Both the position numbers and the translations under genes were made by a program. A model generated the notes under the pieces. The model did not search any database and was not told the origin of the DNA. It saw only the letters and a program-made list of their open reading frames with translations. A stretch of 64,000 nt of DNA from Fervidobacterium pennivorans DSM 9078 (lineage in GTDB: Bacteria; Thermotogota; Thermotogae; Thermotogales; Fervidobacteriaceae): positions 831,501-895,500 of the forward strand of contig NC_017095.1 of the NCBI RefSeq assembly GCF_000235405.2. The letters are read 5' to 3'. Below, piece after piece: positions 22,312-44,397 of this stretch (position 1 is its first letter; each line of letters begins with the position of its first letter).

Positions 22312-23386
22312 AAGCATTTGATAATGTTAACTAAAAGTATTGAAACTTTCCAAAAACCGCATTATCCTTATAAAGAGGGGACACCCCCCAACCAACTCTC
22401 GACAAAGGAGGTATCCCGATATGAACAACTCAACGCTCTCTTGTCCAAAATGCGGTTCCACCAGCTTATACAAAAACGGTCATGACAAATACGGTAACCA
22501 ACAATTCCTTTGCAAACTCTGCCATCATTCTTTCAAACTCTCCCATTCTCAAAAACGCAAAAACTTCCCTTTCCCTTATCCCAAATGCACTTCTTGTGGT
22601 AAATCTATGCAAATTTACAAAGTCCGTCGCTCTTTCGTTGTCTTCCGTTGTAGAGCTTGTCGTACCAAAGATAGAGTACCTTTTAACCTCCCCGAACCAG
22701 TCACCCTTATTCCTGAGAAATTTAAATATTTCCGCTTCCCTATCTTTTTCGTCTTAAAGGCTTTTGTTTTGTATATGAAACACAATATGTCTTATCGCTC
22801 TCTTGCTCATTCTCTTAATATCAAAGTATCTCATGTCACCATATACAAATGGGTTATTAAATTGTGTACTTTATTCTCTGTACTTTTTCCAACATTTACC
22901 ATCGAAAATGTTTTCTCAGTTCATGCTGATGAAACTGTTCTTGTGTTCAAAGAACAAAAGTACTATGTTTGGCTATTAGTTGATCACGAAACTAACTTAA
23001 TTCTTTGTTGGCATGTCTCAAAGTATCGTGATATGGGACAAGTCAAAGTATTGCTCGAGAAGTTCTTTGGTAATTCAAAACCTAGAAACATTGAACTTAT
23101 TACTGATGGACTTGGTGCATATGAAAGTGCAGTAAAGCTGTTGTTCAGAAATATCAATCACGTAGTGGTACCGCTCGGTAAAAACAATCAATGTGAATCT
23201 AAGTTTTCATTGTTGAAAGACTTTTTCCGACTCAAGCGAGGGCTGAAGAATACGAAGAATTTAGCAAAATACATTCAAGGCTTTTGTGTAGTGAAGAATC
23301 TTTGGAAAACACACAATGGCAATATCAATTGCATTCTTTCACACTTACACTCTTTCATCACTACAAGTTAACACTATCAAGCATTT
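22312..23386. mobile_element. Intact IS6-like insertion sequence with 8-bp target duplication
   Basis: The element covers 22320-23378 (1059 bp) and is flanked by AAGCATTT at 22312-22319 and 23379-23386. The ends are imperfect inverted repeats: GATAATGTTAACTAAAAG on the left and GATAGTGTTAACTTGTAG read inwards from the right. The 8-bp duplication and the transposase type both fit the IS6/IS240 family. The matching repeats suggest a recent insertion. It separates the lipoprotein gene from its former upstream region. Confidence 0.92.
22421..23371 (+). CDS. IS6/IS240-like DDE transposase
   Basis: This 316-residue protein has an N-terminal zinc finger (Cys8, Cys11, Cys31, Cys34) and a second CX2C pair set near residues 56-80. 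An HTH-like region (SYRSLAHSLNIKVSHVTIYKWV) follows. The catalytic triad fits Asp170 (VHADET), Asp229 (ITDGLG) and Glu259 (NQCESK) in a D-D-E layout. The start is ATG 22421 after AAAGGAGGT; an in-frame start at 22340 has no ribosome-binding site. The frame is intact, so it may be active and could have mobilised the miniature copy at 5411-5702. Confidence 0.9.
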   Translation: MNNSTLSCPKCGSTSLYKNGHDKYGNQQFLCKLCHHSFKLSHSQKRKNFPFPYPKCTSCGKSMQIYKVRRSFVVFRCRACRTKDRVPFNLPEPVTLIPEKFKYFRFPIFFVLKAFVLYMKHNMSYRSLAHSLNIKVSHVTIYKWVIKLCTLFSVLFPTFTIENVFSVHADETVLVFKEQKYYVWLLVDHETNLILCWHVSKYRDMGQVKVLLEKFFGNSKPRNIELITDGLGAYESAVKLLFRNINHVVVPLGKNNQCESKFSLLKDFFRLKRGLKNTKNLAKYIQGFCVVKNLWKTHNGNINCILSHLHSFITTS

Positions 23387-24015: not shown

Positions 24016-24058
24016 AAAGAAGATGCCCCCATATACATAATGGGGGCGTTCTTCTTTT
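24016..24058. terminator. Bidirectional intrinsic terminator
   Basis: A long stem, AAAGAAGATGCCCCCAT with ATGGGGGCGTTCTTCTTT, flanked by A-rich and T-rich tracts on either side. It ends the SHOCT gene on the plus strand and the sugar operon on the minus strand, whose last stop codon lies at 24057. Confidence 0.9.
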
Positions 24059-25256
24059 ATTCTTTATTCGTTTGATGAAAACCTAACTTTTGCAATCCCT
24101 TTTTGATATATTTGTTTCTCATTGTGATGTCCCAAAGTAGGCCTGTCTTGTAGTTTTCTATCATGAGCAATTCTATACCTTTGTCTATACCAATGTAAAT
24201 TTTTGACACCCAATTTCTGTCTAAATTGTAAGCGTCTTTAAAACCGTAGTGACCCCATAGTTGAGGTACATGTTCGAAATAATATTTCACAGTTTCTTCA
24301 ACTATGTCTGGTGTAAAAACCACTGAGCCAATAGCACCGCAAGGTGGTATTGTGCCATCTGTTCTATGCGTCGTGTTGTTGTTAGCCGATGGTGGTGCTC
24401 CAAAATCACCTCGATAACCATCTGGAGAATCGCAGGCGGTGAGTCCCCAAGACTTTTCGTGTAAGGTTTTATAAACAGTATGCATATCTTTGCAAAATTC
24501 CCAATTTGCTAAAGTCGCAAGTGTCGAATTTTCAAACCAGTTGACGTTCTCTTTGTCAACAATATTTCGAAAATCGATCCAAGCGTGAGAATACTGATAA
24601 GTGAAGAGGGAACCAGTGTATGTGTAAATCAGCTCGTAATCTTTGTATTTTCCTTTCTTTCTTTCAAAAGAATAATACACCGAAGGATCTATAGGATACG
24701 TTGGTGAAGCGACGCCTAGAATATATATAATCAGCTGTTCAGCGTAACCATCCCAGTGACCCCAAAATCCTCTTTCAAAATTGTAGCCCATATAAATTTG
24801 GTTTACTTGTTTGTCTAAATACCACGGAAACTCCACTCTCGAATAAAGAGATTCAAACAAATCGTTTACTTCTCCACCAAAATATTCACCTACAACAAGC
24901 GCTCCCATAAGAAATAGCGCAGTGTCAATAACCGAAACTTCAGACTGCCAAGTTCTCTTCCCATCTTTCATACTTACAAAGTGGACAAAGAAACCATGCG
25001 TTTGTTCCACATTATTGAGGAATGTTTCAAGTGTTTTCACTGCTCTTTGATATCCTTCTTCTCTTGATATCCATCCATTCTCAACACCAACTGGTACCGC
25101 ACTTAGTCCGAAGCCAACAGAAGCTATACTTGCCACGTTTTTATCACCTGTATTATCAACAATCAACCCATAACCTTCTTTGGTTTCGGAAACTTCGTTC
25201 CAAAAGAAGTTGAAAGACAATCTTTCCTCTAATTCAAGAATATCTCTTACGTGCAT
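24057..25256 (-). CDS. PF10091/GH144-type glucanase without signal peptide
   Basis: This 399-residue protein belongs to the glucoamylase-like PF10091 group that includes GH144 endo-beta-1,2-glucanases. Shared motifs are WDGYAEQL near residue 165, FTYQYSHAWIDFR near 220, WGLTACDSPDGY near 268, GAPPSANNNT near 285 and YIGIDKGIELLMIENY near 358. Acidic residues in these motifs are candidate catalysts. There is no signal peptide, so it should act in the cytoplasm on imported oligosaccharides. It is the last gene of the operon and a clear paralogue of the gene just upstream. Confidence 0.78.
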   Translation of the reverse strand: MHVRDILELEERLSFNFFWNEVSETKEGYGLIVDNTGDKNVASIASVGFGLSAVPVGVENGWISREEGYQRAVKTLETFLNNVEQTHGFFVHFVSMKDGKRTWQSEVSVIDTALFLMGALVVGEYFGGEVNDLFESLYSRVEFPWYLDKQVNQIYMGYNFERGFWGHWDGYAEQLIIYILGVASPTYPIDPSVYYSFERKKGKYKDYELIYTYTGSLFTYQYSHAWIDFRNIVDKENVNWFENSTLATLANWEFCKDMHTVYKTLHEKSWGLTACDSPDGYRGDFGAPPSANNNTTHRTDGTIPPCGAIGSVVFTPDIVEETVKYYFEHVPQLWGHYGFKDAYNLDRNWVSKIYIGIDKGIELLMIENYKTGLLWDITMRNKYIKKGLQKLGFHQTNKE

Positions 25257-25288: not shown

Positions 25289-26551
25289 TCACTTTTTATA
25301 GATGAAACCAAGATTTTTCAAACCATTCTGAACATACGGAATGCTCATAAAGATTTTCCAAACCAGTTCGTTTTTATAATTTGCAATCATAAGCAACGTA
25401 ATCCCTTTATCTATACCAATGTAATCAGAAGCAAACCAATTAAAATCAAGGTTGAAAGAGTCTTTCAAACCGTATTTCCCTATTAGCGCCGGTAAAGTGT
25501 AATAGTTATCCAAAGCCCACAAAGCTTCTTTAGGAGTGAAAACGATGGATCCCAAAGCACCAGCCGGTGCTAAAGTCCCATCTACTTGGTGTGCTGTGTT
25601 GTTATTCCCAGATGGAGGTGCCCCTAACAATCCGTTGTATCCACTGGGCGTATCGCATGCGGTAATACCCCACCCTATTGTAAAACTCTTGAATTTATGT
25701 TTATTATCCGTGCAAAAGTTGTAGTTAGCAAGACTTGCTGCTATCGAGTTGTGAAACCAATTGATTCCAAGCTTATCATACCAATTACGAAAATCAATCC
25801 AAGCATGCGAGTATTGATACGTAAAAAGTGAACCGAACCAAGAGTGAATGAACCTTTCTCCCTTGTAACTACCGTAATTTCTTTTAAATGTGTAATACAC
25901 ATCCGATTCTATCCGATATTTTTCCACTGGTGTTCCTGCTCCCAGCACGTATAACATTAGTTGTTCTGCATAGAAATCCCAAAAACCTTCAAATCCTCTT
26001 TCCGGGGTATAAGCCATATAAAAGAAATTCTTTGTAGGATGAACCATTTTGTTCCAATTTACTCTCTCGTAGATTTGTTTAGCTTTTTCCCAGGCTTGAC
26101 CACCAAAGTATTTCCCAGCCGTTAGAACTCCGCATAACAGAATCCCTGTATCAATTGTTGAAACCTCGCTATTCCAAGCTCGCTTTCCAGTGTCCCTATC
26201 CAAGAAATGATAAAAGAAACCGTGAAAATTATCAAGTTTTAAGATTGTATCCAATGTTCCTAAAACCCTCTTAAGTCCTTCCTCCTTTGTTATCCAACCC
26301 TCTTCCACACCGATTACAACCGCAGTAAGTCCGAAGCCAGTAGAAGCTATGCTTGCTATTCCTGGACTACCAGGATATCTGTCTCGAATTAGTCCATATC
26401 CTGGGCTATTTTCGTTCGCATTTGCTTGCTCCCAAAAGTACAGGAAAGAACCTTTATATTCTTTCATAAGGTTCTCAGACAGTTGGTTAGCACCGATACT
26501 CAAAGTCAAAGCAAATAACAGAATGGAAAAAATAAAAGCTTTTCTAAACAT
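25289..26551 (-). CDS. PF10091/GH144-type glucanase, exported
   Basis: This 420-residue paralogue of the neighbouring glucanase has an N-terminal signal peptide (about residues 4-21, FIFSILLFALTLSIGA) without a lipobox cysteine, so secretion is likely. Motifs are FWDFYAEQLMLYVLGAG near residue 185, FTYQYSHAWIDFR near 240, WGITACDTPSGYNG near 290, GAPPSGNNNT near 306 and YIGIDKGITLLMIANY near 380. GH144 members cut beta-1,2-glucan chains; other linkages cannot be excluded. Its place after the permease genes suggests it generates the transported oligosaccharides outside the cell. Confidence 0.8.
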   Translation of the reverse strand: MFRKAFIFSILLFALTLSIGANQLSENLMKEYKGSFLYFWEQANANENSPGYGLIRDRYPGSPGIASIASTGFGLTAVVIGVEEGWITKEEGLKRVLGTLDTILKLDNFHGFFYHFLDRDTGKRAWNSEVSTIDTGILLCGVLTAGKYFGGQAWEKAKQIYERVNWNKMVHPTKNFFYMAYTPERGFEGFWDFYAEQLMLYVLGAGTPVEKYRIESDVYYTFKRNYGSYKGERFIHSWFGSLFTYQYSHAWIDFRNWYDKLGINWFHNSIAASLANYNFCTDNKHKFKSFTIGWGITACDTPSGYNGLLGAPPSGNNNTAHQVDGTLAPAGALGSIVFTPKEALWALDNYYTLPALIGKYGLKDSFNLDFNWFASDYIGIDKGITLLMIANYKNELVWKIFMSIPYVQNGLKNLGFIYKK

Positions 26552-26573: not shown

Positions 26574-27530
26574 TTATTCGCCGGTTATACCTGTTCGATC
26601 TATGCTCTCTACAAACCAATCTTGCGCGATGAAATAGATCAAAATTAAAGGCAAGATTGTTAAAAGCGTTCCGGCCATTATTATCGCTTCGTTTAAGGTT
26701 CGGCCCGTGGTCGTTCCAGGAACAACCAGGTAAAGTCTTCTGAACATATCTTCAAATCTTTGAAGTTGTAATGGCAGAGTTGTCCATTTTTCACCTAAGT
26801 AAAGCGCTGTGATAACTGTATCATTCCAATACCAAACCAACGAGAAAAGGAAAGAAATGAGGTAAGCCGGCATGGCAGATGGTGCAACGATTCTTGCAAA
26901 TATTCTAATTGTCGAAGCGCCATCTATCTTTGCGGCTTCTTCCAAGGATTTCGGAAACATGTTGAAAAATTGATAAAATATGACAATGAAAATCGCGCTC
27001 CTTATTCCCTGAGTAAAGGTTGCTGGTATAATCAATGACCATAGTGTCCCGAGTAGGTTCAGGTCTTTAAACATCAAAAACTGTGGAATCATAGTAACCT
27101 GGGGCGGTAAAATGAACGTTGCAACAGCGATGGCGAAAAGTATATTTTTCCCGGGGAACCTAAAACGTGAAAACCCGTATCCGACGACCGATGCAGAGAT
27201 AGTTTGCAAAAATGCGGGTATTGTTGAGATAATGATAGTTTGTATTAGTGTCTTCGCGTAATCGAGAACCTTTACAGCTTCTTTGTAGTTACCGGTGTAT
27301 AACTTCGTCGGAATCCACTTCACAAGTGGGTTCACCAAATCGGACGTATCCATGAAACTGTATGATATCATGTATATTATCGGATATACAAAGACAAAAC
27401 CGATAAGCAGTAGCATAAAGTAGACAGTGGCTATTTCGAAAGCTTTCTTAGTTCTTTTTTCAATAAAGTAGAGATCTAATCGGCTTCTCTCATCTTTTGG
27501 CTGAAGCTTCTTAAATACTCGGATTTTCAT
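26574..27530 (-). CDS. Carbohydrate ABC permease, MalG type (second pair)
   Basis: This 318-residue protein has six predicted membrane segments and the EAA loop EEAAKIDGASTIRIFARIVAP near residue 215 (core EEAAKIDGAS), which contacts the ATPase. It belongs to the CUT1 sugar permeases. The ATG at 27530 overlaps the stop of the MalF-type gene (ATGA), preceded by GGAAGGT. Together with the 27527-28393 product it would form the second channel of the locus. No ATPase gene is present; a shared MsmK-like ATPase elsewhere is expected. Confidence 0.88.
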   Translation of the reverse strand: MKIRVFKKLQPKDERSRLDLYFIEKRTKKAFEIATVYFMLLLIGFVFVYPIIYMISYSFMDTSDLVNPLVKWIPTKLYTGNYKEAVKVLDYAKTLIQTIIISTIPAFLQTISASVVGYGFSRFRFPGKNILFAIAVATFILPPQVTMIPQFLMFKDLNLLGTLWSLIIPATFTQGIRSAIFIVIFYQFFNMFPKSLEEAAKIDGASTIRIFARIVAPSAMPAYLISFLFSLVWYWNDTVITALYLGEKWTTLPLQLQRFEDMFRRLYLVVPGTTTGRTLNEAIIMAGTLLTILPLILIYFIAQDWFVESIDRTGITGE

Positions 27531-28393
27531 GATACTCTTACCTTCCTTCTGTAAATCGCTGATATTAGAGAGAAAAGTCCTATAACAACCAATATAGCCA
27601 AAAAGTATATCCAAGCGAGAGCAGAAGCATAGCCAAGTCCTCTCTCAGGTCTATACATGTCTACGAGTATCTTTTTAACTATTGGACTCGTTGCAAAAGT
27701 TGAAAGTGTTACTATTGTGTAGATGATATTGACAAATGTAAGTGGTGCCAAAACAGGCATTGTGATTTTCCAGAGGATTTGCCATCTTGAAGCGCCATCT
27801 ATTTTGGCTGCTTCGTACATGTTTTTATCTATCTTTTGCAAACCAGCTAGGTACACGAGGATTTGCACACCGGAATACCAAAGTATCATTATAAATCCCG
27901 AGATAAACATCCCAAGAACCCTTGAAAAGACAGTTGGCAAATTTGTCTGCAGCATTTTAACGAACTGAAGATTAGCTAATCCTGAAAATGTCATAGCTCC
28001 TTTGCTCAAAAGTTTGTCAAACACAGGTCCGCTGGCAATAACCACTGGCAAGAAGTAAATCGTCCGAAACAGGCTTCTGCCCTTTATTTCAATGTTCAAC
28101 AGCAAAGACATAATCATTGCAAAAGAAACTATGATTGGTACAAAAACAATCATTTGTAGAAAATAGTCGACAAGCATCTGAGGATAGTCAACATCTGTAA
28201 GCAAAGCGTCTTTAAAATTCTTCAATCCAACGAAGAACATTCTCACACCGCTTGCTGTAACTTTAACCTCATTTAGACTATAGAGAAACGTTCTGACGAG
28301 AGGAATGATTGTGAAAACAAGAAAACCAATTATCCAAGGAGAAACGAATAGTAAACCCTTTAGTGCTTCTCTTGTGCGTAGCTTTAGTCTCAT
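27527..28393 (-). CDS. Carbohydrate ABC permease, MalF type (second pair)
   Basis: This 288-residue CUT1 permease opens with LLFVSPWIIGFLVFTIIPL, has six membrane segments, and carries the EAA loop MYEAAKIDGASRWQILWKIT near residue 195. The start is ATG 28393 with GAGGTG six bases before; a GTG nine bases upstream is less likely. It follows the DUF5696 gene by 5 bp and overlaps its MalG partner by 4 bp, so these three are translated together. Confidence 0.88.
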   Translation of the reverse strand: MRLKLRTREALKGLLFVSPWIIGFLVFTIIPLVRTFLYSLNEVKVTASGVRMFFVGLKNFKDALLTDVDYPQMLVDYFLQMIVFVPIIVSFAMIMSLLLNIEIKGRSLFRTIYFLPVVIASGPVFDKLLSKGAMTFSGLANLQFVKMLQTNLPTVFSRVLGMFISGFIMILWYSGVQILVYLAGLQKIDKNMYEAAKIDGASRWQILWKITMPVLAPLTFVNIIYTIVTLSTFATSPIVKKILVDMYRPERGLGYASALAWIYFLAILVVIGLFSLISAIYRRKVRVS

Positions 28394-28398
28394 AGAAG

Positions 28399-30558
28399 TC
28401 ACCTCGCTTGTATCACTGCAAAACTTATAGGTTTAACAATTTTGCTATCGAAATTAAATGGCTTTTCACTGTAGTTGAACAAAACCTTTGCCCCGTTATC
28501 GTATGTATTTAGGTAGACGTCTTGGCTAACTTGCACACGAGAAACCAACTTCGAATTGATAAAAAATAGAGCTTTTTCATACATTTCTTTTGCGATCAGT
28601 ATTTTTGGAAGCCAATCCTCAAACCTTGTCGATACCAAATCCTTAGAATTCGTGTTGACAAGCTTCTCCGAACTTTCCCAGGTTAAGTAAAACGAAGGGA
28701 AAATACCATATTCTATACATGCCAAAAGGTCTCTGTTGTAATCTGATGAAAGGTTGAGCGGTGACGAAAAGATAGGCAAAAATTGCTTTAGTATGTAAGG
28801 TACAATTGGCAAAACCTCATCCTCAATTTCATAGCCGGAGTTTGTTAACGAAATGTCAGATAAAGCACCTGCGAGGCTTATGACGTACCAGTTGAACCCG
28901 TAGACGATAGGTTTGCCAAATATTCTAAACGCATTAGTGAAATCAGTAACTACTTCTGCTCTAGTCATATCCCGAGTTGAAAACGCTAAGTCTCCTACAG
29001 AACCAAGCGCAAATTTTTTGATTCCCACTTTTTCAAATTCCCTTTTTTCTTTGATTACAAAAGATTTGACAAATTTAGGAGATAGAACGTATTTTCCTTC
29101 GTATTCCATAAATTGTTCAAGTCTGTTCAGTGCGATGCCTATTTTATTCAGTGATTTTGATTCTTTTGGTGAAAGGATGTAGTTCACATAGAAATAATCT
29201 TCCAAAGGTTGTAAGGGTCTCCCGAAAATCCGTTTTTCTAACGGCAGGTGTTTCGGAGAACTAAGTGATAAACCTCCTTCAGTATAACCAACCAACACAA
29301 ATAGAGATTCCGGAATAAATTTCCTCAGCACACTTTTTATCTTAAGAAATTGCTCCTGGTTTGTCATTTTAACAAGTGAGTAGTCAAATGTAGATTTCTT
29401 TGCTTCAGCGATAAGAACGTCAAACTTGAAGGTATAACCATTCGTTGCGTTAGATTTCTTCGAGTATTCCTCGACAAAACGCTGAACGAGTGAAAATTCG
29501 TTGGCATTAGGAACAAAGAAGTATCTGACAGTAAATTTTGTCGTGTTCAACTCTTCTTGTGGAACAGTTATACCTTCCCCCGCTTTATTCAAAAGTTTCT
29601 TATGAAGGTCCCTTAAGACAAATCTCGCGGTTATCCAATTATGGTTCGTAACTATACCAGCTTTAAAAGCATTTATCTCGGCATACATATCTCCTTCTTC
29701 AATAACGGTAAGTAATCCATTTATATATTCATTAGCCAGGTTTTCAGAGTTTTGCGAATCGGATGCATATAAAATGCCGTAGAGTGGAAGGGAGTAATTT
29801 TCAGGTTCTTTTACATTTCTGAAATAGGAATACGGGAATACTTCCCGAAATCCTATATCTAGCCCGTAGAGTCGTGCTTTAAATGGGGCGGTTGCGACTG
29901 TTTTCTTTGATAAGTCAATCTTCGCTCCAACTCCATCAGCCAAGATAAAACCTCCATTCACAACTCCATGGGAGCCTCCTAAATAAGGATAAAGGTACAA
30001 TCCCATCAACCGGTATTTTCCTTCGTTTATATTATTAATTTTCAATCGGAGCGAGTCTTTTATCAGCTCATACGAAACGTCGAAAGACGCACCTATGTTC
30101 TCAAAAACAATAGATGCAGTAAACATATTCGAAGACCTTTTTCTAATAGAGATTTTTGCATCTCTCGTTGAGTAGGTTCTTTTAATATTCCCCGTAGAAT
30201 CACAAAATTCTACAATAAACGGTGTATTGAAAAAAGAACTCCATATTTGATTTAGTTCGGAATCTTCATCTTCCAATACAGATTTCCATTGAGCGTTATT
30301 TCGCTTGTCAGTAACCATAAACTGTAAGCTATTGGTATCAAACGAAACTCGTAAGTATTCATTTTCTAATTGTGCGTTATAACTTGGGCGAAAGAAGCGG
30401 TAATCGCTTTCAGAAAAGCTTTCTACCTTTGAAACGACAACTTCAGAAGGTCCAGCTTGAACCAACCAAGCAACTCCAAGGACTATTAGCAAAACAAAAA
30501 GAAACCTCAGGAGAATCTTTCTTAACCCCTTTCTAATGGACTCATTTAACCTTAACAC
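28399..30558 (-). CDS. DUF5696-like exported protein
   Basis: This 719-residue protein starts with a basic stretch and one hydrophobic segment (about residues 16-35, ILLRFLFVLLIVLGVAWLV) and should be exported or anchored outside. The remainder is a large soluble part: a beta-rich first half (residues 60-330) and an alpha/beta second half that could be a barrel. I assign it to DUF5696 from memory of such proteins beside sugar ABC genes in Firmicutes; this needs a profile search. Catalytic residues are not evident. GTG 30558 overlaps the previous gene by 17 bp. A role in binding or cutting extracellular glucan is inference. Confidence 0.6.
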   Translation of the reverse strand: MLRLNESIRKGLRKILLRFLFVLLIVLGVAWLVQAGPSEVVVSKVESFSESDYRFFRPSYNAQLENEYLRVSFDTNSLQFMVTDKRNNAQWKSVLEDEDSELNQIWSSFFNTPFIVEFCDSTGNIKRTYSTRDAKISIRKRSSNMFTASIVFENIGASFDVSYELIKDSLRLKINNINEGKYRLMGLYLYPYLGGSHGVVNGGFILADGVGAKIDLSKKTVATAPFKARLYGLDIGFREVFPYSYFRNVKEPENYSLPLYGILYASDSQNSENLANEYINGLLTVIEEGDMYAEINAFKAGIVTNHNWITARFVLRDLHKKLLNKAGEGITVPQEELNTTKFTVRYFFVPNANEFSLVQRFVEEYSKKSNATNGYTFKFDVLIAEAKKSTFDYSLVKMTNQEQFLKIKSVLRKFIPESLFVLVGYTEGGLSLSSPKHLPLEKRIFGRPLQPLEDYFYVNYILSPKESKSLNKIGIALNRLEQFMEYEGKYVLSPKFVKSFVIKEKREFEKVGIKKFALGSVGDLAFSTRDMTRAEVVTDFTNAFRIFGKPIVYGFNWYVISLAGALSDISLTNSGYEIEDEVLPIVPYILKQFLPIFSSPLNLSSDYNRDLLACIEYGIFPSFYLTWESSEKLVNTNSKDLVSTRFEDWLPKILIAKEMYEKALFFINSKLVSRVQVSQDVYLNTYDNGAKVLFNYSEKPFNFDSKIVKPISFAVIQAR

Positions 30559-32569
30559 GGTATATCAACTCCTCAAATATAGACGTAAGGAATGAAAATT
30601 CTTCTCTAACAAGCACAGCGATGATTACCAGCAGTATCGTTATAAGTATCATTGCAAAAATCGTTAATAAAAAGTTTCTAACGGTTTCGCCGAAAGAGAA
30701 GTTGTGAACCTGCGCGATGACTATAAAGAGTAAGACAAACGACCAACCCCATATTATCTGCATTCCAAAAGTGTAGATGAAAGACTCGTTTAAGGTTAGC
30801 AAATTTGTTATTAAAGCAAGAGGAACCGAAAACAATAAGTAAGGAAGAAAAGAAGCAATCGTTCCTATAAAGATGTGTTTGAACTTTCCTTCACCTTCTG
30901 AAATCTCACTAACTAAAAAGTTTGAAAGAACAAATAGGAAAAACAGTCTGTAAGTATCAACAAAAAGTCCCAAGAAATTTATTTTCCTTGCATCGAAACC
31001 CACAAACAGTGGTGAACCAATAATTCTTATAATTACGTTCTCAGCGTAAAGTAGCAAGTACAAAAAAATCCCTGTGAACCAAGATATCCTATCGTGTCGC
31101 TTCATTTCGTAAACAGCGTCGAATGGGTTCTTGATAAAAAGCCAAGTGTAACGCAGCTGTTTAATTAAAAAGTTATCCATTTTTATAGCCTTTTTCTCTC
31201 TCTTTTTGATAAAACCTTGCCTTAGGAGTATTGTTCTGATAAGATCAGCAATTGCCAAGAAAACAAGCACAAAAAACACAGGTCCAACTGTTTTCTGCAA
31301 CCATATGTTTCTTATATACCAAAAAGCATCGGAATAACCCTTCGCGTCTCGTGCTAGTCTGAAATATTCAAAAGCTTTCGTGTAATTTTCCTTTTTGAAT
31401 TCTACATTTCCCAAAACTTTATATGTCAAAACAAAAGCTGAGTTTGTTTTCTGAATATCTCTCCAAATTTTCTCACTTTCCAGGTACATACCCTGATTGT
31501 AGTAATAAACACCCTTTAAGACAAGTTTGCCAAAAAAAGTTATTCTGAAGATTGTTACCGTTCCATCCTCTTTATCTAAAACAAAGATTCTGCCATCATC
31601 AGTGACAGCAATAGCACTCGCTGAACGGAAAAGCCCGAGTCGGTTTTCATAGAAGCTCTGCCCACCGAAAACAAAGATTAGATTACCAAGAAGGTCGTAA
31701 ACATATACCAAACCATCAGCCGTAAGGGCGTATACCGTTCCGAGCGAATCCACGTCTATGTCTACAAACTTGTCGTTTGAAAGTGACAACTTTGGATAGA
31801 TATTTACCCCAGCAACATTGAATCTTTTTATGGCGTCTTCTTTAAGACCTTGAGTTATGGTCCATACAGCATTGGTATGATCTATAGTCACACTCGTTGG
31901 GGATGGGGGTCTAATTTTCAACAATTGAGCCCTTTGTGATTCTGTAAATATCAACCTCTGAAGAACCATCCTCAAGGTAACCTTAGGGGTATTGGCTCCA
32001 AAAAAGCTCAAAAATCTGCCATCTTTATTGAAAACTGCAAGTCCGTTAGTGACACCCTGACAAACAACATATATATTTCCTCGCCTATCTGCAGCAACTT
32101 TGAGAGGTATGAAATCGTTCAGACGCCCATAAATAGGTGAATCTGGTTTCGAAATTGTAAGAACCAAATTCCCATCCGGTGCAAATTTATAAACACTTTG
32201 TGCCCAAGAGTCTGCAACGTATATGTAATCATTCTCATCGACGTAAATGCCATCCGGATTTGTAAGAGTTCCTTCACCAACGTAGGAAACTGTGGTCCTG
32301 TCTTCACTTGCGAAGTTGATGATTTCTATTCTTGCGTTTTGCGAGTCACTTATGTAGAGTTTTCCTTTATGCCAGAAGATATCCGAAATCGATGATGTAT
32401 CGAAAACAAGTTTACGCCATGGAACAAAGGCGTCTTGGGTACGAACTAGATTATCACCTATACCTAGTGTGTATGTGTAATACGGAGCGTATCCCAAAAT
32501 TGAGGAAACTATCAAAGTGGTTAAGGAAAAAACTATTAGCGATAATTCTTTACTGCAAAGCTTTGTCAT
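30542..32569 (-). CDS. Membrane protein with NHL-type beta-propeller, TPR and YIP1 domain
   Basis: This 675-residue protein has an N-terminal signal anchor (about residues 9-30). A series of NHL-like repeats follows (LTNPDGIYVDENDYIYVADS and similar units, residues about 45-345). A short TPR stretch lies around 350-420 (YNQGMYLESEKIWRDI, KENYTKAFEYF), then one membrane segment near 435-455 and a YIP1-type block of about five segments from 490 to the end. The propeller should lie outside the cytoplasm. ATG 32569 follows AAAGGGGCGAG. It lies between two permease pairs. The function is unknown; a sensor or scaffold for glucan handling is possible. Confidence 0.7.
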   Translation of the reverse strand: MTKLCSKELSLIVFSLTTLIVSSILGYAPYYTYTLGIGDNLVRTQDAFVPWRKLVFDTSSISDIFWHKGKLYISDSQNARIEIINFASEDRTTVSYVGEGTLTNPDGIYVDENDYIYVADSWAQSVYKFAPDGNLVLTISKPDSPIYGRLNDFIPLKVAADRRGNIYVVCQGVTNGLAVFNKDGRFLSFFGANTPKVTLRMVLQRLIFTESQRAQLLKIRPPSPTSVTIDHTNAVWTITQGLKEDAIKRFNVAGVNIYPKLSLSNDKFVDIDVDSLGTVYALTADGLVYVYDLLGNLIFVFGGQSFYENRLGLFRSASAIAVTDDGRIFVLDKEDGTVTIFRITFFGKLVLKGVYYYNQGMYLESEKIWRDIQKTNSAFVLTYKVLGNVEFKKENYTKAFEYFRLARDAKGYSDAFWYIRNIWLQKTVGPVFFVLVFLAIADLIRTILLRQGFIKKREKKAIKMDNFLIKQLRYTWLFIKNPFDAVYEMKRHDRISWFTGIFLYLLLYAENVIIRIIGSPLFVGFDARKINFLGLFVDTYRLFFLFVLSNFLVSEISEGEGKFKHIFIGTIASFLPYLLFSVPLALITNLLTLNESFIYTFGMQIIWGWSFVLLFIVIAQVHNFSFGETVRNFLLTIFAMILITILLVIIAVLVREEFSFLTSIFEELIYRVKVK

Positions 32570-32597
32570 CCACTCGCCCCTTTGTATCAATTTTTTA

Positions 32598-33467
32598 TCA
32601 TTTAATACCAGAGTGTGCCATCGTATTCATAACCTTGCTTTGTGTGAACATAAAGATTATTAGATTCGGCAGAAACATAATTGCAGCTGCGGCTGCCGCT
32701 ATCCCTGCTCCCGCTACTGTGCCTGCATTTCCACTTAGTGTTGACATATAGTAAGCAAAGTTTTTCAAACTCTCGTTGTTTATATAGATAAGGGAAGCTT
32801 CCATTGAGTTCCATGCACTTTGAAATGCAAGAATAGCAACTGTTGCAACCGCTGGTTTTGTAAGCGGAAGGATTATTTTCAAGTATATGAACCAGTCATT
32901 AGCACCATCGATTTTTGCAGCTTCGATAAGAGAATCAGGAATCTGATCTATGAACTGTTTAACTAAGAAAAGGCCAACAGGCATTGCAAGCATGGGTAAA
33001 ATATGAGCTAAGAAGTTATCCACCAACCCAAGTTTTGCGACAATTATGTATCTTGGGATGGAAACTGCTGTTGGTACAAACATGAGCGCCAAAGTATTGA
33101 TTTCGAAAAGTAGTTTTTTGTACTTGAAATTTTTCTTTGACAGTACATACCCTGCAGCAGTACTTATGAATATGGACAACGTAACCACACTAACAGCAAT
33201 TATAACGCTGTTAAAAAGATATCTGCTTACAGGAATACCCGACTGTGTCATAGCACTGAAAAGTGCTTTGAAATTCTGCAACGTAGGATGCCTTACAAAT
33301 ATCCGCGGCGGAAAAGCGAATAATTCGTTATATGGTTTGAAAGCATTCGAGAATATAAAGATCAACGGTATAGACATAAACGCCGCAAACGGAACAAGAA
33401 AAAAGTAGAATTTCAGTTGACTCTTGTCAAATCTCTCCGGATTGATTTTTGTGCCCTTAAAAGCCAT
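32598..33467 (-). CDS. Carbohydrate ABC permease, MalG type (first pair)
   Basis: This 289-residue CUT1 permease has six membrane segments and an EAA loop IEAAKIDGANDWFIYLKIIL near residue 185. The start is ATG 33467 with AGAGGTGA eight bases before; 19 codons upstream there is another in-frame start that would run across the ribosome-binding site. A striking alanine/glycine-rich segment (AGTVAGAGIAAAAAAI) forms part of its last membrane region. It pairs with the MalF-type gene 25 bp upstream. Confidence 0.88.
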   Translation of the reverse strand: MAFKGTKINPERFDKSQLKFYFFLVPFAAFMSIPLIFIFSNAFKPYNELFAFPPRIFVRHPTLQNFKALFSAMTQSGIPVSRYLFNSVIIAVSVVTLSIFISTAAGYVLSKKNFKYKKLLFEINTLALMFVPTAVSIPRYIIVAKLGLVDNFLAHILPMLAMPVGLFLVKQFIDQIPDSLIEAAKIDGANDWFIYLKIILPLTKPAVATVAILAFQSAWNSMEASLIYINNESLKNFAYYMSTLSGNAGTVAGAGIAAAAAAIMFLPNLIIFMFTQSKVMNTMAHSGIK

Positions 33468-33492
33468 ACTATCACCTCTAAGTCCTTTGGAA

Positions 33493-34386
33493 TCAGTCTC
33501 TGTCGAGGAACAGCGCCCAAACAAACTTGGAACTTATCCATATCATTATCAAGAGCACAACAGAGATTGCTGCCGCGTACCCCATTTCATACCTCATGAA
33601 CCCAAAGTCTTCGATATGATTTACTATAAGCTGTCCAGCATATTGTGGAGTTGGATTTGAGCCAGAGAGCATTACTCCAATATATCCAGCCTGAAATGTA
33701 GACACAACAGCCATAACAGCACCAAAAAGCATTTGCGGTTTCATCAAAGGGATTGTAATATAAAATATTTCCTGCCATCTTTTTGATATTCCATCTATGT
33801 ATCCAGCTTCGTAAATTTCTGGGTCGGTATTCAACACACCTGCAAGCATGGCTAAAAAGCCGACTCCCATACTACTCCACAGTGTTACAACCACCATAGC
33901 TGGAAAAAGGAACTTCGGTGATTGAAGCCACTGAACAGGTTGGTCAATGAGCCCCAACCTTAACAACAGACTGTTTAGATATCCTGATTTATCGCCACTG
34001 AATATTGTCAACCATATAACTTGCATGGCCACACCAACTGTCATTGACGGAGAGTATATAATCAGTGCAAGAATTGTTCTGGGGATTCTCGGAATTTGTG
34101 CCAACATCCAAGCCAGTATGAATGCAAGAAAATAACCGGTTGGTCCAACCAAGATTGCAAACTTTATTGTATTCGGTAAAACATATTGCATAAATACACT
34201 ATCTGTTGTGAAAAGGGATATGTAGTTCTTAAGCCCTACAAATTTTGGAAATTGTATGGTATTGAAGTTAGTAAACGAAAGCAAAATAGCTAAAATTGTT
34301 GGAACGACGATGAATATTGTAAAAAGAGCTATATAAGGCGAAAGAAAGGTAATTATCCATCGATGTTCGCTCTTACTTATCTTCAC
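33493..34386 (-). CDS. Carbohydrate ABC permease, MalF type (first pair)
   Basis: This 297-residue CUT1 permease opens [21 protein letters not shown] and carries the EAA-type loop [20 protein letters not shown] near residue 190 (EAGYIDG instead of EAAxIDG). The start is GTG 34386 behind AGAGGTGA; the longer in-frame form would begin inside the preceding gene. It follows the fused solute-binding protein gene by 4 bp, so that protein is its most likely binding partner. Confidence 0.88.
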
Positions 34387-34390
34387 AAAA

Positions 34391-37285
34391 TCACCTCTCT
34401 GAGCCTTTATCTTCAGTGTTTTCCATGTACCAACTGAGTATATCTGCAATGGTGTAAATTCTGAATGGCTTGACAGGTTTTCCATCCTTGTAGTAGCCAA
34501 ACTCTTCTAACTTTCGTGCAAACTCCTTGTTAACAATAATTACGCTGTCATCAACAGCAACCTTCAATGGTTTGCCTTCGAGGACAACCTTGTTCCAGAT
34601 ATTACTGATTTCCCTCTCTAATATGTAACTTGCTGGCATTTTTGGTACCTCTTGCAACCATCTGAATTGCTCTTTGACAACCTTCAAATGTTCTGTCTTA
34701 AAGGGAACACCATCTATTGCGAATCGATTCGAAGGGATAACCAAAAATTCAATGCCATAAGTGCTAACAATTCTGTTTACCAAGCTCACTTGCGTTTCTT
34801 TAGAAAGCCACCATTTCACAAACTCCCAAGCCTCCATGGGGTATTTTGTATCGTTTAGTATAGCCACTGCTTGAGCAGAACCAGTCTGCCATCTTTCAAT
34901 GGAGGTTCCGTATCTCACTCCGGGTGAAGGAGCTATGCTCCACATACCACGTAATTCAGGCGCTGCAATCATGAGTTGGATATATGTATTCACGTTCGAC
35001 ACTCCTAAAGGAATTTCTCCTTTTCTGAAACTCTCGAAAAAGTTTGCAACTTGTGCAGGCATGCCATACATGGTGAATAACTCGGTCATCTCTTTCAGCG
35101 CTTTCAGTGTGCTTGGGGTATCCAGTGCAGTTTTAAGCCCATCGTCTGTGAAAAGTTTGCCGTGGTATTGCATGATAAAGGGCGCTGTGGTCATCCACGC
35201 TTTGAAAGACGAACTTCCAGAAAGTGGTATGTAAAAATTCAAACCGTTTCTTTGTAGCTCTGGAAGTATCAATTTCACATCATCCCAAGTGTTCGGAATG
35301 GGTATGTTTAGATACTCCAGAATATCTTTTCGATAAAAGAGCACATAAAAGTCGAGTGTTTCGGGCAGCCCAAAACAGTGATTTTCGTACAGGTAAGGTA
35401 ACAATGAACCCGGGTAGAAATTCTTTGAAAATTCTACAAAGTCGGAGAAACGTTTCAAGTCAAGTGCTGCACCACGGATTCCCATCTCAAATGGTATCCA
35501 GTTACTTATTCCAAGTGCTATATCAGGTGACTTTTTAGCAGCGTTAGCAAGTATGAGCTTCCCTTCGTCACGCATTATTGAAACGTCTACGTAAATGCCT
35601 GTCTTCTTAGTAAAGTCATTATCGATAAGTTGTTGCAAAATGTCTACATATTGGCGGGGTCTGTTAACCCACACTCTTAACATGACGGTGTTCTCTTTCT
35701 GACTTTTTGAGAACGTTGTATTCTCTTGCCTCTTAAATGAATGAACAAATCTTTTGAAACCTTCGACAAATACTTTAAAAGGAGAGGATTTGACAATCTT
35801 ATCTATATTATCTCCTTTGTAGATGTAGATTTCGTCAATTGTCAGAGGCATTTCTTGGAGGCCGTTATAGACCACTGAAAGTTCAGAAAGAACTGAACCT
35901 GTGCTTCCAGTTAGCATATCTAACTTATTTGGTATCTTATTAACATCCTTTACCAGTCTTTTCAAAAACATCTGAGCCGTGTTTAAAGATATGTACTCCG
36001 CATTCCACGCGTTTCCATTTATCTTAGCTATTTTTATCTTGATTATTTCGAGCTCATTAATCAAGGATTTGAGCTTTGGTTCTATATCCGGAAAATAGTC
36101 CGTAATCTCCCATTCTACGTTTTTATCTGAGCTACCACCCGATATGTATTTAATTTGTAGTGCTAGCTTGTTTATATAATCAATCATTGACTTCAAGCTG
36201 TTAAGTACATCCGAATAAACCGAAGCATTGACTTCGAAAGCAATTGTGTGCTTACCTTTAGTGAGATGGAAAACTATGTCACTAGTTTTGTCTAATGATT
36301 TCAGGGTATAAACTCTCCAGTCAGGTGTATATTCAAACGGAATTTCGAGTAAGTCACTATATGTTACGTCACCATCGATGTACACAGTTCTATAGCTTGT
36401 GAAGTTCGGTTTTGTGTCCTGACGATACTTGACAGCTATTTTGTAATATCCCTCTTCGGGAACATCGAATTCATAAATTACGAATTGTCCTGGTTGTTTC
36501 CAGTTACTACCACCAAATGCGTTCAAAAGAAGATTGTAAGTGTTGTAAGGAACAGTGTCAGGAGAACGAACCGGGATAGCATTAACTGAGGCTTCATTTT
36601 TTCTGAAAGGTTTCTCCGCCTGAAGTGTTATAATCCTTCTCTCACCTTCTGAATCCTTGATACCAAGCTTACCAATAACTTCACTAAATTTAGTAAGACT
36701 TTTCGGCCTTTCTATTGATAATCTCTTGATAGCTATTTTTCCGCTGTTTACAATTAGCGTTATGGTAACTCTTGGTGAGCGGAGGTTGAACCAAAGAGGG
36801 AATTTGTCTATTCCGTTTGGATTTTTCAAAACATAAGATATGGTATCAGAGGCTATTTTTTGACTAGGAATAATCTCGTCTCCATATCTGTTCTTGGCAA
36901 AATCAGTAGTTTCGTATTCCCAATACTGGACCAGGGGTATCGAACGAGCTTCTGAAAATGGGAGTTTGCCGTTCAAATAAACAGAGATCTCCGGTGGTAA
37001 AATCTGAATTGAAAAAACTTCATAATCAATCCTTATGTTCCATAGCCCTTGTTTTTCTTTGGGTATCTCTATTTCGTAAGTAATGGAACTACCCTCTGAT
37101 AATACAAGAAAAGACCGGGGAGATTCCCAGAGGGTCTCCCCAGTCAAGAGAGGGGTCGGTGAACGTCTTAAGTAAGCATTATAGTCAACTGTTTGACTAT
37201 TTTGTGTCATTGCAAAAAGGACTGCATAGGTGCTTAGCACATACGTAACTATAAGAATCAATGTTATTTTTAGAAAAACATCCAT
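34391..37285 (-). CDS. Large fused solute-binding protein: N-terminal beta-sandwich region plus family 1 binding domain
   Basis: This 964-residue protein is about twice the size of a normal sugar-binding protein. After a membrane anchor (about residues 4-24) come roughly 500 residues with two beta-sandwich-like units resembling carbohydrate-binding modules (for example [16 protein letters not shown] near residue 290), joined by a helical linker near 370-450. The C-terminal 440 residues are a family 1 solute-binding domain ([18 protein letters not shown] ... [11 protein letters not shown] ... [10 protein letters not shown]). The start is uncertain: ATG 37285 is used, while the good GGGAGGGAG site lies 21-29 bases upstream with only GTG 37318 before it. 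Confidence 0.72.
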
Positions 37286-37342
37286 GCGTCTTAATTTGAG
37301 TATTTTACTCCCTCCCACAGTTTTTTGGAAAAAGAAACTTAT

Positions 37343-38647
37343 TTACTTTGTCATTATAGCTATTTTCTTAATAGCGTTCTGATACTGCTCATTTGCTATC
37401 TTGTTCAGTTGTTTCGCGTAATCTGCAATGTTAATATCTCCTCTCATTGCGTTCCAAATAACGTCCCCGATATTAGCATTTGGATTGTCTCCAACTTTGA
37501 TGCCTGTTGGAGCTGTCCATCTTGATTGGATGTAACCTGGAACGATCTTTACACCCTCTATAATACCAACTCCTATTTTTGCATAAGCTTCGTCAAGTCC
37601 TGGGAAGAGTTTCTTAACTGCGAAATATTTATCGAGCACGGCTTTTTCTGTAGTCAATGGTAATGATGCCCATTCGTTTTTCTTATCAAGCTCAAGCCTC
37701 TTTAGAATGCCGTCTCTGCCATATGTTACAAATTTTGCGAACATGAATGCTTCCTTTGGATACTTTGTAGTCTTTGATATGACAAAGAAATCACCAACAA
37801 CAGGTATTCTGCCTCCAGGAACTCCAATGAATCTCGATTTGAATGGGAGTGATGAATAGAAAGGCGTTGCCCATGTTCCATCCCATCTAATAGCAATTTT
37901 TCCTTGATTCCAAACATCGCCATACCAACCAGCATTGTACTGTTTCTTCTGCTCTTCTGGAAGTGCATCGTAAACGTATTTTCCCTGGTAGAGCTGCTTG
38001 GCTATATTTACTGCTTCAATGAAAGCTCGGTCATCGAGATGATATTCTTTGCCATCCCAAGTAAACCATCCAAATTTCAAATTCTTCATTGCAGGATACC
38101 ATTCTGGAATTTGAATTTCTTCAGCAAGACCGATAATACCATCTCTCGGTATCGTTAATTTTTTAACTGCTGTTAAGAATTCATTCCAGCTTGGTGCAAA
38201 TTTGAGAGGCTTGACGTTATACTTCTCAAACAGATCATCGTTCACAAAGTAACCCATGAAGAAAAGTCCTGCAGGTACAGCATAGATTCTGTTGTTATAA
38301 ATTGTTGCATTTCTGATTGGGGCGGGAATGTTTTTCCATTCCGGGTCTGCTAAAGCCATCTTAGTGAGATCAAGAGCCCAATCGTTTGTCAAAGCCATTG
38401 GTATGTTTGGTATCATAATAACATCTGGTAATTTTCCGGCAGCTGCTTGCGCAATAAGCCAGTCCTCGTAATTACCCTCATGTTTAACTATCTTGACTTC
38501 AATATCTGGATTTAGTTTCATGAACTCCTGAACCATAGCTTGCTCAATCTCAAGACCACTGTTCCAGTTTACGTACGTAATAGTCACTTTACCAAACGCC
38601 AAAACCGCGAAAAGCATCAGTAAACCTGCTAACCAGAACTTTTTCAT
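37343..38647 (-). CDS. Sugar ABC transporter substrate-binding protein
   Basis: This 434-residue family 1 solute-binding protein has a signal peptide (residues 1-19, MKKFWLAGLLMLFAVLAFG) and no lipobox cysteine. The mature part begins KVTITYVNWNSGLEIEQAMV and has the usual FMKLNPDIEVKIV and late AFMFAKFVTYG segments. The start ATG follows GGGAGGGAAG. It lies between the GH94 gene and the fused binding protein. With two binding proteins and two permease pairs, the locus may import two sizes of oligosaccharide. Confidence 0.88.
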   Translation of the reverse strand: MKKFWLAGLLMLFAVLAFGKVTITYVNWNSGLEIEQAMVQEFMKLNPDIEVKIVKHEGNYEDWLIAQAAAGKLPDVIMIPNIPMALTNDWALDLTKMALADPEWKNIPAPIRNATIYNNRIYAVPAGLFFMGYFVNDDLFEKYNVKPLKFAPSWNEFLTAVKKLTIPRDGIIGLAEEIQIPEWYPAMKNLKFGWFTWDGKEYHLDDRAFIEAVNIAKQLYQGKYVYDALPEEQKKQYNAGWYGDVWNQGKIAIRWDGTWATPFYSSLPFKSRFIGVPGGRIPVVGDFFVISKTTKYPKEAFMFAKFVTYGRDGILKRLELDKKNEWASLPLTTEKAVLDKYFAVKKLFPGLDEAYAKIGVGIIEGVKIVPGYIQSRWTAPTGIKVGDNPNANIGDVIWNAMRGDINIADYAKQLNKIANEQYQNAIKKIAIMTK

Positions 38648-38682: not shown

Positions 38683-41049
38683 CTAACCTAAGGTAACATC
38701 CACCGTATGTATCTTACCATCCGAAAGAATTGGAACTCTTTCAACTTTTTGACCGTCAAGAATTATTTCTTTTACGCCGTAACTTACTTTATTTGGATTT
38801 TTTACAGTGATTACATACAACGTGTCTCCGAAAAACCTTTTGTACGTAAAGCCTTCCCAATCCGAAGGTATAACGGGATCTATGTCAATGTATCCGTAGT
38901 TAGGTCTGATACCAAGAATCCAGTGGGTTGCTACACGGTGTAGCCACTGTGCCGAACCTGTATACCAGGTCCAACCACCACGACCGTAATGAGGTGACAA
39001 TGGTCCATCTGAATTACCGCAAGTTACGTAAGGCTCCGCCCAATAATTGTCAATATCAAAACTTCTGTACGGTGGGCAAATTCCTCTGTAAGCTTTATAC
39101 ATAGCTTCAACATCTCTCATAAGCGCAAAAGCCCAAACCGCCCAGGTTGCTGCATGTGTGTAAACTCCTCCATTTTCTCTAAGACCAGGAGCATATCTTG
39201 TTATGTAACCAATATCACTTCTTGGTTTTGTGTACGCTGGATAAAGAAGTAGTGCTCCATAATCTTTTAGCAGATATTTTTTTACCGATTCCATAGCTTT
39301 TTTCTTTCTTTCGTCATCCGTAATATCACTAATTACAGCCCAAGTCTGTGCATTGAGGAAGATAAAACCTTCTTCGTTTTCCTTAGATCCTAATTTTTCC
39401 CCGTCATCTTTTGTCGCTCGTATGAACCATTCCCCATCCCAAGCAAATTTGTTGATAGAAGTTTTGAGTGTGTCAAGAACATCACGGCATTTTTCAGCAA
39501 ATGCTTCATCTCCTTGCCTTTCGATAATTGGTATGAATTCTTTCAAAAGTAAATACAAGAAATGGGCAAGCCATATACTTTCACCTTTCCAATCTGTGCC
39601 AACCGCGTTCAGTCCATCATTCCAGTCATTTTCTCCTATCAATGGTAATCCCCTTGGTGAGAAACGCTTGAAAGACTTTTCTATTGCCCTTTTACAATGC
39701 TCGTAAAGTGTTGCACTACCGCCGTCAAGAAATGGAACTATCTCATCAAGAATCGAATAATCAAGAGTCTCCTTTATGTATTCCTGTGTGATAAATGGCA
39801 ACCACAAAAGGTCATCACTACAATGCGTTCTTGGTCCACCACCACGAATTGTGAACCACCAATGTAAAACGTCACCTTCTTGGAATTGATGAGCAGCATG
39901 AAGAAGAATTTGTTTCCTTGCAAGTTCCGGGTTCAAACTAAAGAAAATCTGGGAATCTTGTAACTGGTCTCTGAAACCATACCCTGCCGAAACTTGATAA
40001 TAACCAGACTTTGCCCAAATTCTGCCAGATATGGCTTGGTATTTAGTCCAGTAATTTGTCATTATGTTAAGCCCTATGTCCGGAGTTTCAACCAATTCCC
40101 GTTCAAGCAAGTCCATCCAAAATTTTTTAGTTTTTTCAAATTCCTCTTCCGCAGTCTTCACATCGGTATATTTCGCTGCAAGTAGTTCTGGATCTTCTTC
40201 TCCAATTTTCGCTGCACCTATTGTGAAAACTACCTTCCTTTCTTCTCCTGGTTGCAATGCAACCTCAACTTGGAGAGAAGCACAAGCGTCTCCGAATCTG
40301 TCACACTTGTTATCGAGTTTTTCAACACTCATAGCGATTGGATTTCTTTCGTCCCTGTACATTCCAATGAAAGATTCTTTGTCACATGTAAATGATTTAA
40401 CCGGCAAACTCACACTGTGAAACGCTACATGGTCCCAATTCGTATTGTTCCAACGGCCTTTTTCATCTGGAAATTGACCAAGGTATTTCTGCACGAATAT
40501 AGTATTATTTTTGAATGATGGTTCAAAGAACAACTTATGAAATTCTCTGTGTTCGTCTGGAAAGTTACCTAAAACCCATTCAAAATAGGTAGTCAAGTCT
40601 ATCTTTCTGACCTTGTCATCTTCATTTCTTATCGTGATGAGCATAAACTCTACCGGCGAATCAATACTCACATAGACTTTCATTTCCGAATAAATATCAC
40701 TCACTTTGTGTTTATAAACCGTATAACCAATACCGTGGACAACTTCGTATAATTGATACTCTGTCATCACTGGTTTCCATCCTGCAGACCAAAACTTCCC
40801 CGATTCTATGTCCCTTATATAAACGTACTTACCCCAGTTGTCCTTGATAAGGTCTTGATACAACCTTGTTATTCTGTTCTGACCCGCATTACCTCTCCAG
40901 GAATAGCCACTTCCTGTATGCGAGGCGATTATTGAATAGTCTCCGTTGCTTATTACATTTACCCAAGGTCTTGGAGTTCTCGGATTTGTTATTACGTATT
41001 CTCTTCCGTCGGCAGTAAAATAACCATACTTACTTTCAAATAGCTTCAT
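38683..41049 (-). CDS. GH94 family disaccharide/oligosaccharide phosphorylase
   Basis: This 788-residue cytoplasmic enzyme should cleave beta-glucosides with phosphate, releasing alpha-glucose-1-phosphate. The N-terminal beta-sandwich begins YGYFTADGREYVITNPRTP and the (alpha/alpha)6 barrel holds GYGFRDQLQDS near 356-366. The acid motif GENDWNDGLN spans 472-481, with Asp475 or Asp478 as general acid. The length is close to cellobiose phosphorylase (about 810) and shorter than known 1,2-beta-oligoglucan phosphorylases (about 1100), so the substrate is open. Its ATG overlaps the GH35 stop codon (ATGA). Confidence 0.85.
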   Translation of the reverse strand: MKLFESKYGYFTADGREYVITNPRTPRPWVNVISNGDYSIIASHTGSGYSWRGNAGQNRITRLYQDLIKDNWGKYVYIRDIESGKFWSAGWKPVMTEYQLYEVVHGIGYTVYKHKVSDIYSEMKVYVSIDSPVEFMLITIRNEDDKVRKIDLTTYFEWVLGNFPDEHREFHKLFFEPSFKNNTIFVQKYLGQFPDEKGRWNNTNWDHVAFHSVSLPVKSFTCDKESFIGMYRDERNPIAMSVEKLDNKCDRFGDACASLQVEVALQPGEERKVVFTIGAAKIGEEDPELLAAKYTDVKTAEEEFEKTKKFWMDLLERELVETPDIGLNIMTNYWTKYQAISGRIWAKSGYYQVSAGYGFRDQLQDSQIFFSLNPELARKQILLHAAHQFQEGDVLHWWFTIRGGGPRTHCSDDLLWLPFITQEYIKETLDYSILDEIVPFLDGGSATLYEHCKRAIEKSFKRFSPRGLPLIGENDWNDGLNAVGTDWKGESIWLAHFLYLLLKEFIPIIERQGDEAFAEKCRDVLDTLKTSINKFAWDGEWFIRATKDDGEKLGSKENEEGFIFLNAQTWAVISDITDDERKKKAMESVKKYLLKDYGALLLYPAYTKPRSDIGYITRYAPGLRENGGVYTHAATWAVWAFALMRDVEAMYKAYRGICPPYRSFDIDNYWAEPYVTCGNSDGPLSPHYGRGGWTWYTGSAQWLHRVATHWILGIRPNYGYIDIDPVIPSDWEGFTYKRFFGDTLYVITVKNPNKVSYGVKEIILDGQKVERVPILSDGKIHTVDVTLG

Positions 41050-43163: not shown

Positions 43164-43196
43164 TAGACTCACCCCAGATAGTGGTGAAATGTAATA

Positions 43197-43253
43197 GAAA
43201 CGTTTCACTTGATTTTTCGCTATCATATTACCACACCAGGTATAAGAAAACAA
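43197..43253 (-). promoter_or_regulatory. Promoter and LacI-type operator of the sugar operon
   Basis: On the minus strand TTGTTT (43253-43248) and TAATAT (43230-43225) are 17 bp apart. About 20 bp downstream lies the palindrome GAAACGTTTC (43197-43206), within AAGTGAAACGTTTC on the minus strand. The same AAGTGAAACGTT half occurs at the promoter of the LacI-family gene, so this is its likely binding site. Confidence 0.75.
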
Positions 43254-43380
43254 AACACAGTTATCTCTTATTTTCGCGAGGTAGAAGTGAATACACACTA
43301 ATAACTCTTAATTCCATTATTTTTGTCTTGATTATTCTTTTTTTTTTCAATAAGTACCTTTCAGAACACCAGCAAAGTAT

Positions 43381-44397
<1,017 letters not shown>

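Follow-up and report, generated by a model that had tools for sequence, protein, structure and literature searches.

A fixed module of two sugar permease pairs, an NHL-TPR-YIP1 protein and a GH129-fold DUF5696 protein in Thermotogota and Bacillota

CUT1 sugar importers, a class of ATP-binding cassette (ABC) transporters, are usually treated as one permease pair with one solute-binding protein (SBP) and a shared ATPase. Here we describe an operon of Fervidobacterium pennivorans DSM 9078 in which genes for an NHL-TPR-YIP1 membrane protein and a DUF5696 protein lie between two permease pairs; it was found in a stretch of 64,000 nucleotides (contig NC_017095.1, positions 831,501 to 895,500), hereafter the window, whose numbering is used for its genes. 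With importers of the MalFGK2/MsmEFGK type the operon shares MalF/MalG-type permeases with EAA loops, extracellular SBPs (two SBP_bac_1 proteins here) and an ATPase gene that usually lies elsewhere. It differs in having two co-inherited permease pairs in one fixed operon instead of a single heterodimer, constant NHL-TPR-YIP1 and DUF5696 proteins, and an SBP with some 500 extra N-terminal residues. NHL propellers elsewhere are extracellular sensor domains, as in PknD; the propeller here has the same fold as TRIM/Brat NHL and the PknD ectodomain, but continues into TPR and YIP1 membrane parts and is linked to ABC permeases. The beta-1,2-glucan ABC transporter of Listeria innocua and transporters linked to glycoside hydrolase (GH) family GH161 are encoded in clusters without an ATPase gene (PMC6484121), and in being beta-glucan oligosaccharide importers of this kind they resemble the module, although the sections of that paper used here describe no NHL-YIP1 protein, DUF5696 protein or second permease pair. 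The open-licence literature yielded no mention of DUF5696, nor of a YIP1/DUF5696 combination with transporters, a search by which subscription papers could be missed, and the eight-gene module as a unit has apparently never been described before.

The operon lies on the minus strand and runs LacI regulator, GH35, GH94, small SBP, large SBP, U1, U2, NHL-TPR-YIP1, DUF5696, D1, D2, two GH144-type enzymes and a terminator-like stem, where pair U (U1, U2) denotes the permeases upstream of NHL-TPR-YIP1/DUF5696 and pair D (D1, D2) those downstream. All four permeases carry BPD_transp_1 (Pfam). The genes at its centre are as follows.

34391..37318, minus strand: large SBP, with an N-terminal transmembrane (TM) helix, N-terminal domains of about 500 residues in all and a C-terminal SBP_bac_1 domain
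33493..34500, minus strand: permease U1, MalF type, EAA loop intact
32598..33524, minus strand: permease U2, MalG type, EAA loop intact
30542..32569, minus strand: NHL propeller-TPR-TM-YIP1 (5 TM) protein, ATG start at 32569
28399..30558, minus strand: DUF5696 protein, with an N-terminal TM anchor, beta-sandwich, TIM barrel and a beta domain at the C-terminus (fold of GH129, whose catalytic acids are not conserved)
27527..28402, minus strand: permease D1, MalF type, start GTG 28402 or ATG 28393
26574..27614, minus strand: permease D2, MalG type

The N-terminal domains of the large SBP are CBM35-like in one relative. An earlier reading made from the letters alone (the sequence-only reading) had placed two genes with a 17 bp overlap between the permease pairs and suggested an undescribed part of a transport system. 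The open reading frames share exactly 17 bp (30542-30558), and the suggestion accords with the literature search above and the fixed gene order reported below.

A co-inherited unit in two phyla

The module was found in about 67 distinct loci, from Thermotogota, Bacilli and one Clostridia plasmid, and contig ends permitting nearly all keep the same order: large SBP, U1, U2, NHL-TPR-YIP1, DUF5696, D1, D2, then glycan enzymes. F. pennivorans itself has a second copy, at about 454-482 kb, in which the core genes keep this order, and tblastn places the module on plasmids of Paenibacillus cellulosilyticus and Butyrivibrio fibrisolvens. A profile scan of genome contigs with a Thermotogota alignment gave 8 loci, and whole-genome surveys were then used. 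Of 103 Thermotogota genomes, 33 have a DUF5696 match above the Pfam threshold, strong in 25 and due to weak barrel similarity in some of the others; at E 1e-20 DUF5696 occurs in 49 of 392 Bacillota genomes. Our first sample comprised 50 mapped loci at 45 distinct places (five were the same contig reached twice), each viewed within a 20-kb limit. NHL was present in all 50, YIP1 in 49, the large SBP in 48, and the U and D pairs were complete in 47 and 46, respectively. Most gaps are explained by the end of a contig, by gene insertion or by fusion of D1 with D2; at L086 the upstream half of the module is truly missing. The second sample (n=20), drawn mostly from the low-scoring end, kept the order except at contig ends and at L150 and L152, two copies that are broken or incomplete; there the D permease pair still follows the damaged DUF5696 genes. 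One locus, L040, sits on a contig filed as an Acidobacteriota metagenome-assembled genome (MAG), and its DUF5696 shares 97% identity with a DUF5696 protein from Thermotogota; the contig is likely misbinned.

Loci found through DUF5696 cannot reveal YIP1 elsewhere, and we therefore searched the 103 Thermotogota genomes for YIP1 directly. If the pairing were a local accident, one might expect the two genes mostly apart; instead 31 of 35 YIP1 matches adjoin a DUF5696 gene. Both occur in 24 genomes, DUF5696 only in 1 (a broken copy), YIP1 only in 2 and neither in 76 (Fisher p 4e-20, uncorrected for kinship). Because of this survey of other genomes, the pairing of DUF5696 with NHL-TPR-YIP1 can be said to go beyond chance.

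The permeases tell the same story. A tree built from the 172 permeases of 43 loci (39 distinct places) resolves U1, U2, D1 and D2 as four clades with zero mismatch, U1 grouping with D1 and U2 with D2. An enlarged tree, which also included other sugar permease loci from F. pennivorans, one additional pair and the two plasmid loci, leaves the four clades intact and puts the plasmid permeases in their proper clades; the MalF-type U1 and D1 remain together (support 0.88), and with outgroups the U2-D2 grouping is not resolved. Since the four permeases stay in separate clades whatever the locus, the module has been inherited as one unit. Trees of its parts correlate with r 0.67-0.93, D1 being the loosest, and the GH144 context label needs 3-4 changes on each tree, against about 15 with shuffled labels.

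The EAA-loop Gly is invariant, 43 of 43 in each of the four permease classes. With intact loops throughout, both pairs should dock an ATPase, and the idea that the D permeases are degenerate, scaffold-only proteins is rejected. An apparent loss of D1 in four Bacillota loci proved to be gene fusion: D1 and D2 form a single MalF-MalG polypeptide of 617-631 residues (L118:11706-13559; L135:8100-9980; L136:8097-9989; L139:11684-13579), which is evidence for a D1-D2 dimer. The window operon contains no MalK-type ATPase gene. One OB_MalK ATPase gene was found in the own genome, away from the operon (G000:C1:429116-429280), against about 10 sugar permease loci, and a ugpC (MalK-type ATPase) gene adjoins the Paenibacillus cellulosilyticus module.

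Two anchored ectodomain proteins

The sequence-only reading took the first protein for a propeller joined to TPR and YIP1 parts, and closer analysis upholds that layout. Its gene encodes 675 residues from the ATG, which follows an AAAGGGG-type ribosome site; translation from a TTG at 32590 is the less likely alternative. Pfam detects NHL at E 6e-11, the TPR score falls under the cut-off, and Yip1 (PF04893) scores 25.0 bits by hmmscan and 28.9 in a six-frame search, the cut-off being 28.6, which most orthologs clear with 42-70 bits. An AlphaFold2 model compared with the PDB matches NHL propellers at Z ~27, all matches being taken by the propeller part. The predicted layout is an N-terminal export segment, the propeller, short TPR-like helices, one TM helix and a five-helix hydrophobic YIP1 part. 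NHL and YIP1 are one fused gene in most loci and separate genes in others, an occurrence that suggests that they act together.

The second protein, described by the same reading as a large exported DUF5696 protein, is indeed that: 719 residues from a GTG start, a PF18952 match over the cut-off (E 1.9e-85, 288 bits, residues 142-713), and one N-terminal hydrophobic helix with a predicted exported body. The proposed comparison with glycoside hydrolases identifies its fold. An AlphaFold2 model with a predicted local distance difference test score (pLDDT) of 72.5 and a predicted template-modelling score (pTM) of 0.75 matches the GH129-like DagB of Zobellia (5opq) by Foldseek at E 1e-28, with Z 26.3 over 557 residues, and NagBb at Z ~24, the next structural group standing at ~16. 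The shared architecture, common to GH129, GH129-like enzymes and GH101, is a beta-sandwich, a TIM barrel and a C-terminal beta domain. Remote similarity to DagB also exists at the profile level, a 41-sequence DUF5696 profile retrieving it at E 3e-11. Pfam GH129 (PF11308) has no match in this genome, hmmscan of the window protein returns DUF5696 only, and a search for GH129 in Bacillota found none. The sole PF11308 protein across the 103 Thermotogota genomes (L119:340-2604, genome G053) shows weak similarity to the C-terminal portion of the DUF5696 profile; in hhalign, DUF5696 aligned with it over that part alone, with low probability. The profile also weakly matches GH13-type proteins because of TIM-barrel similarity, and we rejected a relationship to GH13 amylases, as the whole-chain fold is that of GH129.

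DUF5696 differs from GH129 in its membrane anchor, its place inside a transporter operon and, above all, its catalytic positions. DagB requires Asp486, Glu517, Glu531 and Asp202, and its Asp486 corresponds to Asp435 of NagBb (PMC5698469). We set NagBb 'YLDV...MTRRE...TSSE' against DUF5696 'ALxx...TRxE...xxPN'; in this register, drawn from motifs and secondary structure, 28% of the 64 DUF5696 proteins compared have an acid in the Asp435-equivalent column and 0-9% have one in the following-strand Glu columns. At these positions the window protein carries Gly, then Gly/Phe. The invariant residues cluster elsewhere: in the PDGxGA and YGxD motifs of the sandwich domain, and at Pro584, Asn602 and Asn695. 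We conclude that DUF5696, as modelled, is a GH129-fold protein without GH129 catalysis; it would then serve as a non-catalytic glycan-binding subunit.

A possible importer with two dimers and its rivals

Our preferred reading, to which we assign a probability of roughly 0.55, is that NHL-TPR-YIP1 and DUF5696 are membrane-anchored extracytoplasmic subunits of a single CUT1-type importer. Its permeases would make up two dimers, U1-U2 and D1-D2, powered by a shared MalK-type ATPase. The glycan would be cut outside by exported enzymes, and the resulting oligosaccharide bound and held by the large multidomain SBP together with DUF5696, with NHL-TPR-YIP1 as a scaffold holding DUF5696 and both dimers together; the ligand would then be handed over, imported, and cut in the cytoplasm by phosphorylases and hydrolases. 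A bolder version, which we offer tentatively and at clearly less than even odds, is that Thermotogota and Bacillota share a new ABC importer architecture, in which a propeller-TPR-YIP1 scaffold joins two dimers and a former glycosidase, DUF5696, acts as substrate receptor or chain guide. Several observations weigh against our reading. The D permeases correlate with the other parts at only r 0.67-0.78, and the two pairs may thus work semi-independently; confidence in the DUF5696 model is moderate; its catalytic columns were mapped by register and not by superposed coordinates; and a catalytic set other than that of GH129 is conceivable, for example one formed by E179, D208 and D234 of the sandwich.

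These three residues are nearly invariant, and together with the GH129 fold of the whole ectodomain they are what one might expect if DUF5696 represented a new family of active surface glycosidases, trimming the oligosaccharide before import with acids other than those of GH129, perhaps in the sandwich or from a partner subunit. A precedent for the latter exists in DagB, where the essential Asp202 is supplied by the N-domain of the neighbouring monomer, and the YGxD motif of DUF5696 aligns to that region. One barrel position, residue 616, also speaks for this, being E/D in 63 of 64. Against it, this only near-invariant acid of the barrel sits in a predicted helix, and none of the barrel's strand-end acids is conserved beyond 77%. 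Known GH129-like enzymes moreover cut alpha linkages, whereas the module accompanies beta-glucan and muramyl enzymes. We consider an active enzyme unlikely, and of the binding, sensing or cutting that the sequence-only reading had proposed for the two genes, cutting by DUF5696 is disfavoured and glycan binding would be the best reading.

Gene position allows another division of labour, in which DUF5696 replaces an SBP as substrate receptor of the D pair and NHL-TPR-YIP1 joins two importers, each complete and each with a receptor of its own kind. In gene order DUF5696 comes immediately before D1 (in the window the two share 4 bp if D1 starts at GTG 28402), just as the large SBP comes immediately before U1, several loci have a single SBP gene, and the D1-D2 fusion speaks for a dimer of its own. 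Position is, however, the whole basis of this proposal; many loci have a small SBP that may serve D, the one-SBP loci may be cut by the 20-kb limit, and we know of no ABC importer with a TIM-barrel receptor. We regard it as improbable, much as we do an active glycosidase. A little more doubtful is a role for NHL-TPR-YIP1 as a sensor that reports the state of ligand or transporter across the membrane and is no transport subunit. The PknD ectodomain, an extracellular NHL sensor, is among its fold matches and the YIP1 part spans the membrane, but a Pfam search recognised no cytoplasmic signalling domain, the operon already has a LacI regulator, and the protein is strictly coupled to two permease pairs. 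That both genes are passengers in accidental position is very improbable indeed, and is rejected by synteny and trees: the order is identical in two phyla and co-inheritance is clean.

Variable cargo on a constant platform

The remaining genes of the window operon bear on what the importer might carry, every substrate assignment being drawn from enzyme families.

43381..44397, minus strand: LacI-family regulator (Pfam LacI, Peripla_BP_3), upstream on the same strand, the operon's probable regulator
41046..43298, minus strand: GH35-type glycosidase (Pfam Glyco_hydro_35, E 4.5e-43)
38683..41049, minus strand: GH94 phosphorylase, best PDB matches being GH94 domains of cyclic beta-1,2-glucan synthases
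37343..38647, minus strand: small SBP (Pfam SBP_bac_1)
25289..26551, minus strand: GH144-type endo-beta-1,2-glucanase, exported (signal peptide by eye; Pfam PF10091; 5gzh endo-beta-1,2-glucanase, E 7e-43)
24057..25256, minus strand: second GH144-type enzyme, cytoplasmic (no signal peptide by eye; Pfam PF10091, E 5e-77)
24025..24047, minus strand: terminator-like stem-loop at the operon end (consensus scan only)

Between the operon end and a neighbouring gene for an exported protein with a DUF4382 domain (21354-22295, minus strand) lies an IS240-type DDE transposase (22340-23371, plus strand).

The GH144 match to 5gzh and the affinity of GH94 to cyclic beta-1,2-glucan synthase domains suggest beta-1,2-glucan as substrate of the window locus. 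The second copy is accompanied by GH3, GH161 and GH16, of which GH161 and GH16 suggest beta-1,3-glucan. In some Bacilli modules NamZ, GH3, a BadF-type kinase and a MurQ-like protein follow directly (L101:14426-18943, Bacilli MAGs), a cargo that is probably for recycling of N-acetylmuramic acid-N-acetylglucosamine (MurNAc-GlcNAc), a peptidoglycan sugar; the Butyrivibrio module carries GH43. In Paenibacillus cellulosilyticus (L121:16186-25409) four LLM-class flavin oxidoreductases and two more SBPs, instead of glycosidases, come after the module. Because the cargo differs between loci, the module is a general importer platform, not one specific for glucan; the tie to "the glucan" drawn by the sequence-only reading does not hold, and a glucan-specific surface enzyme is rejected on the same varied enzyme context.

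Compared with the familiar importer, this fixed eight-gene module, which recurs in two phyla and is reused with different glycans, has a second permease pair and two subunits with ectodomains. It places DUF5696 and a group of bacterial YIP1 proteins in a functional setting for the first time, and offers a case in which the conversion of a glycosidase fold into a transport part can be tested. If the bolder version of our reading is true, we find it tempting to speculate that the new architecture perhaps lets long glycans be held and imported piecewise.

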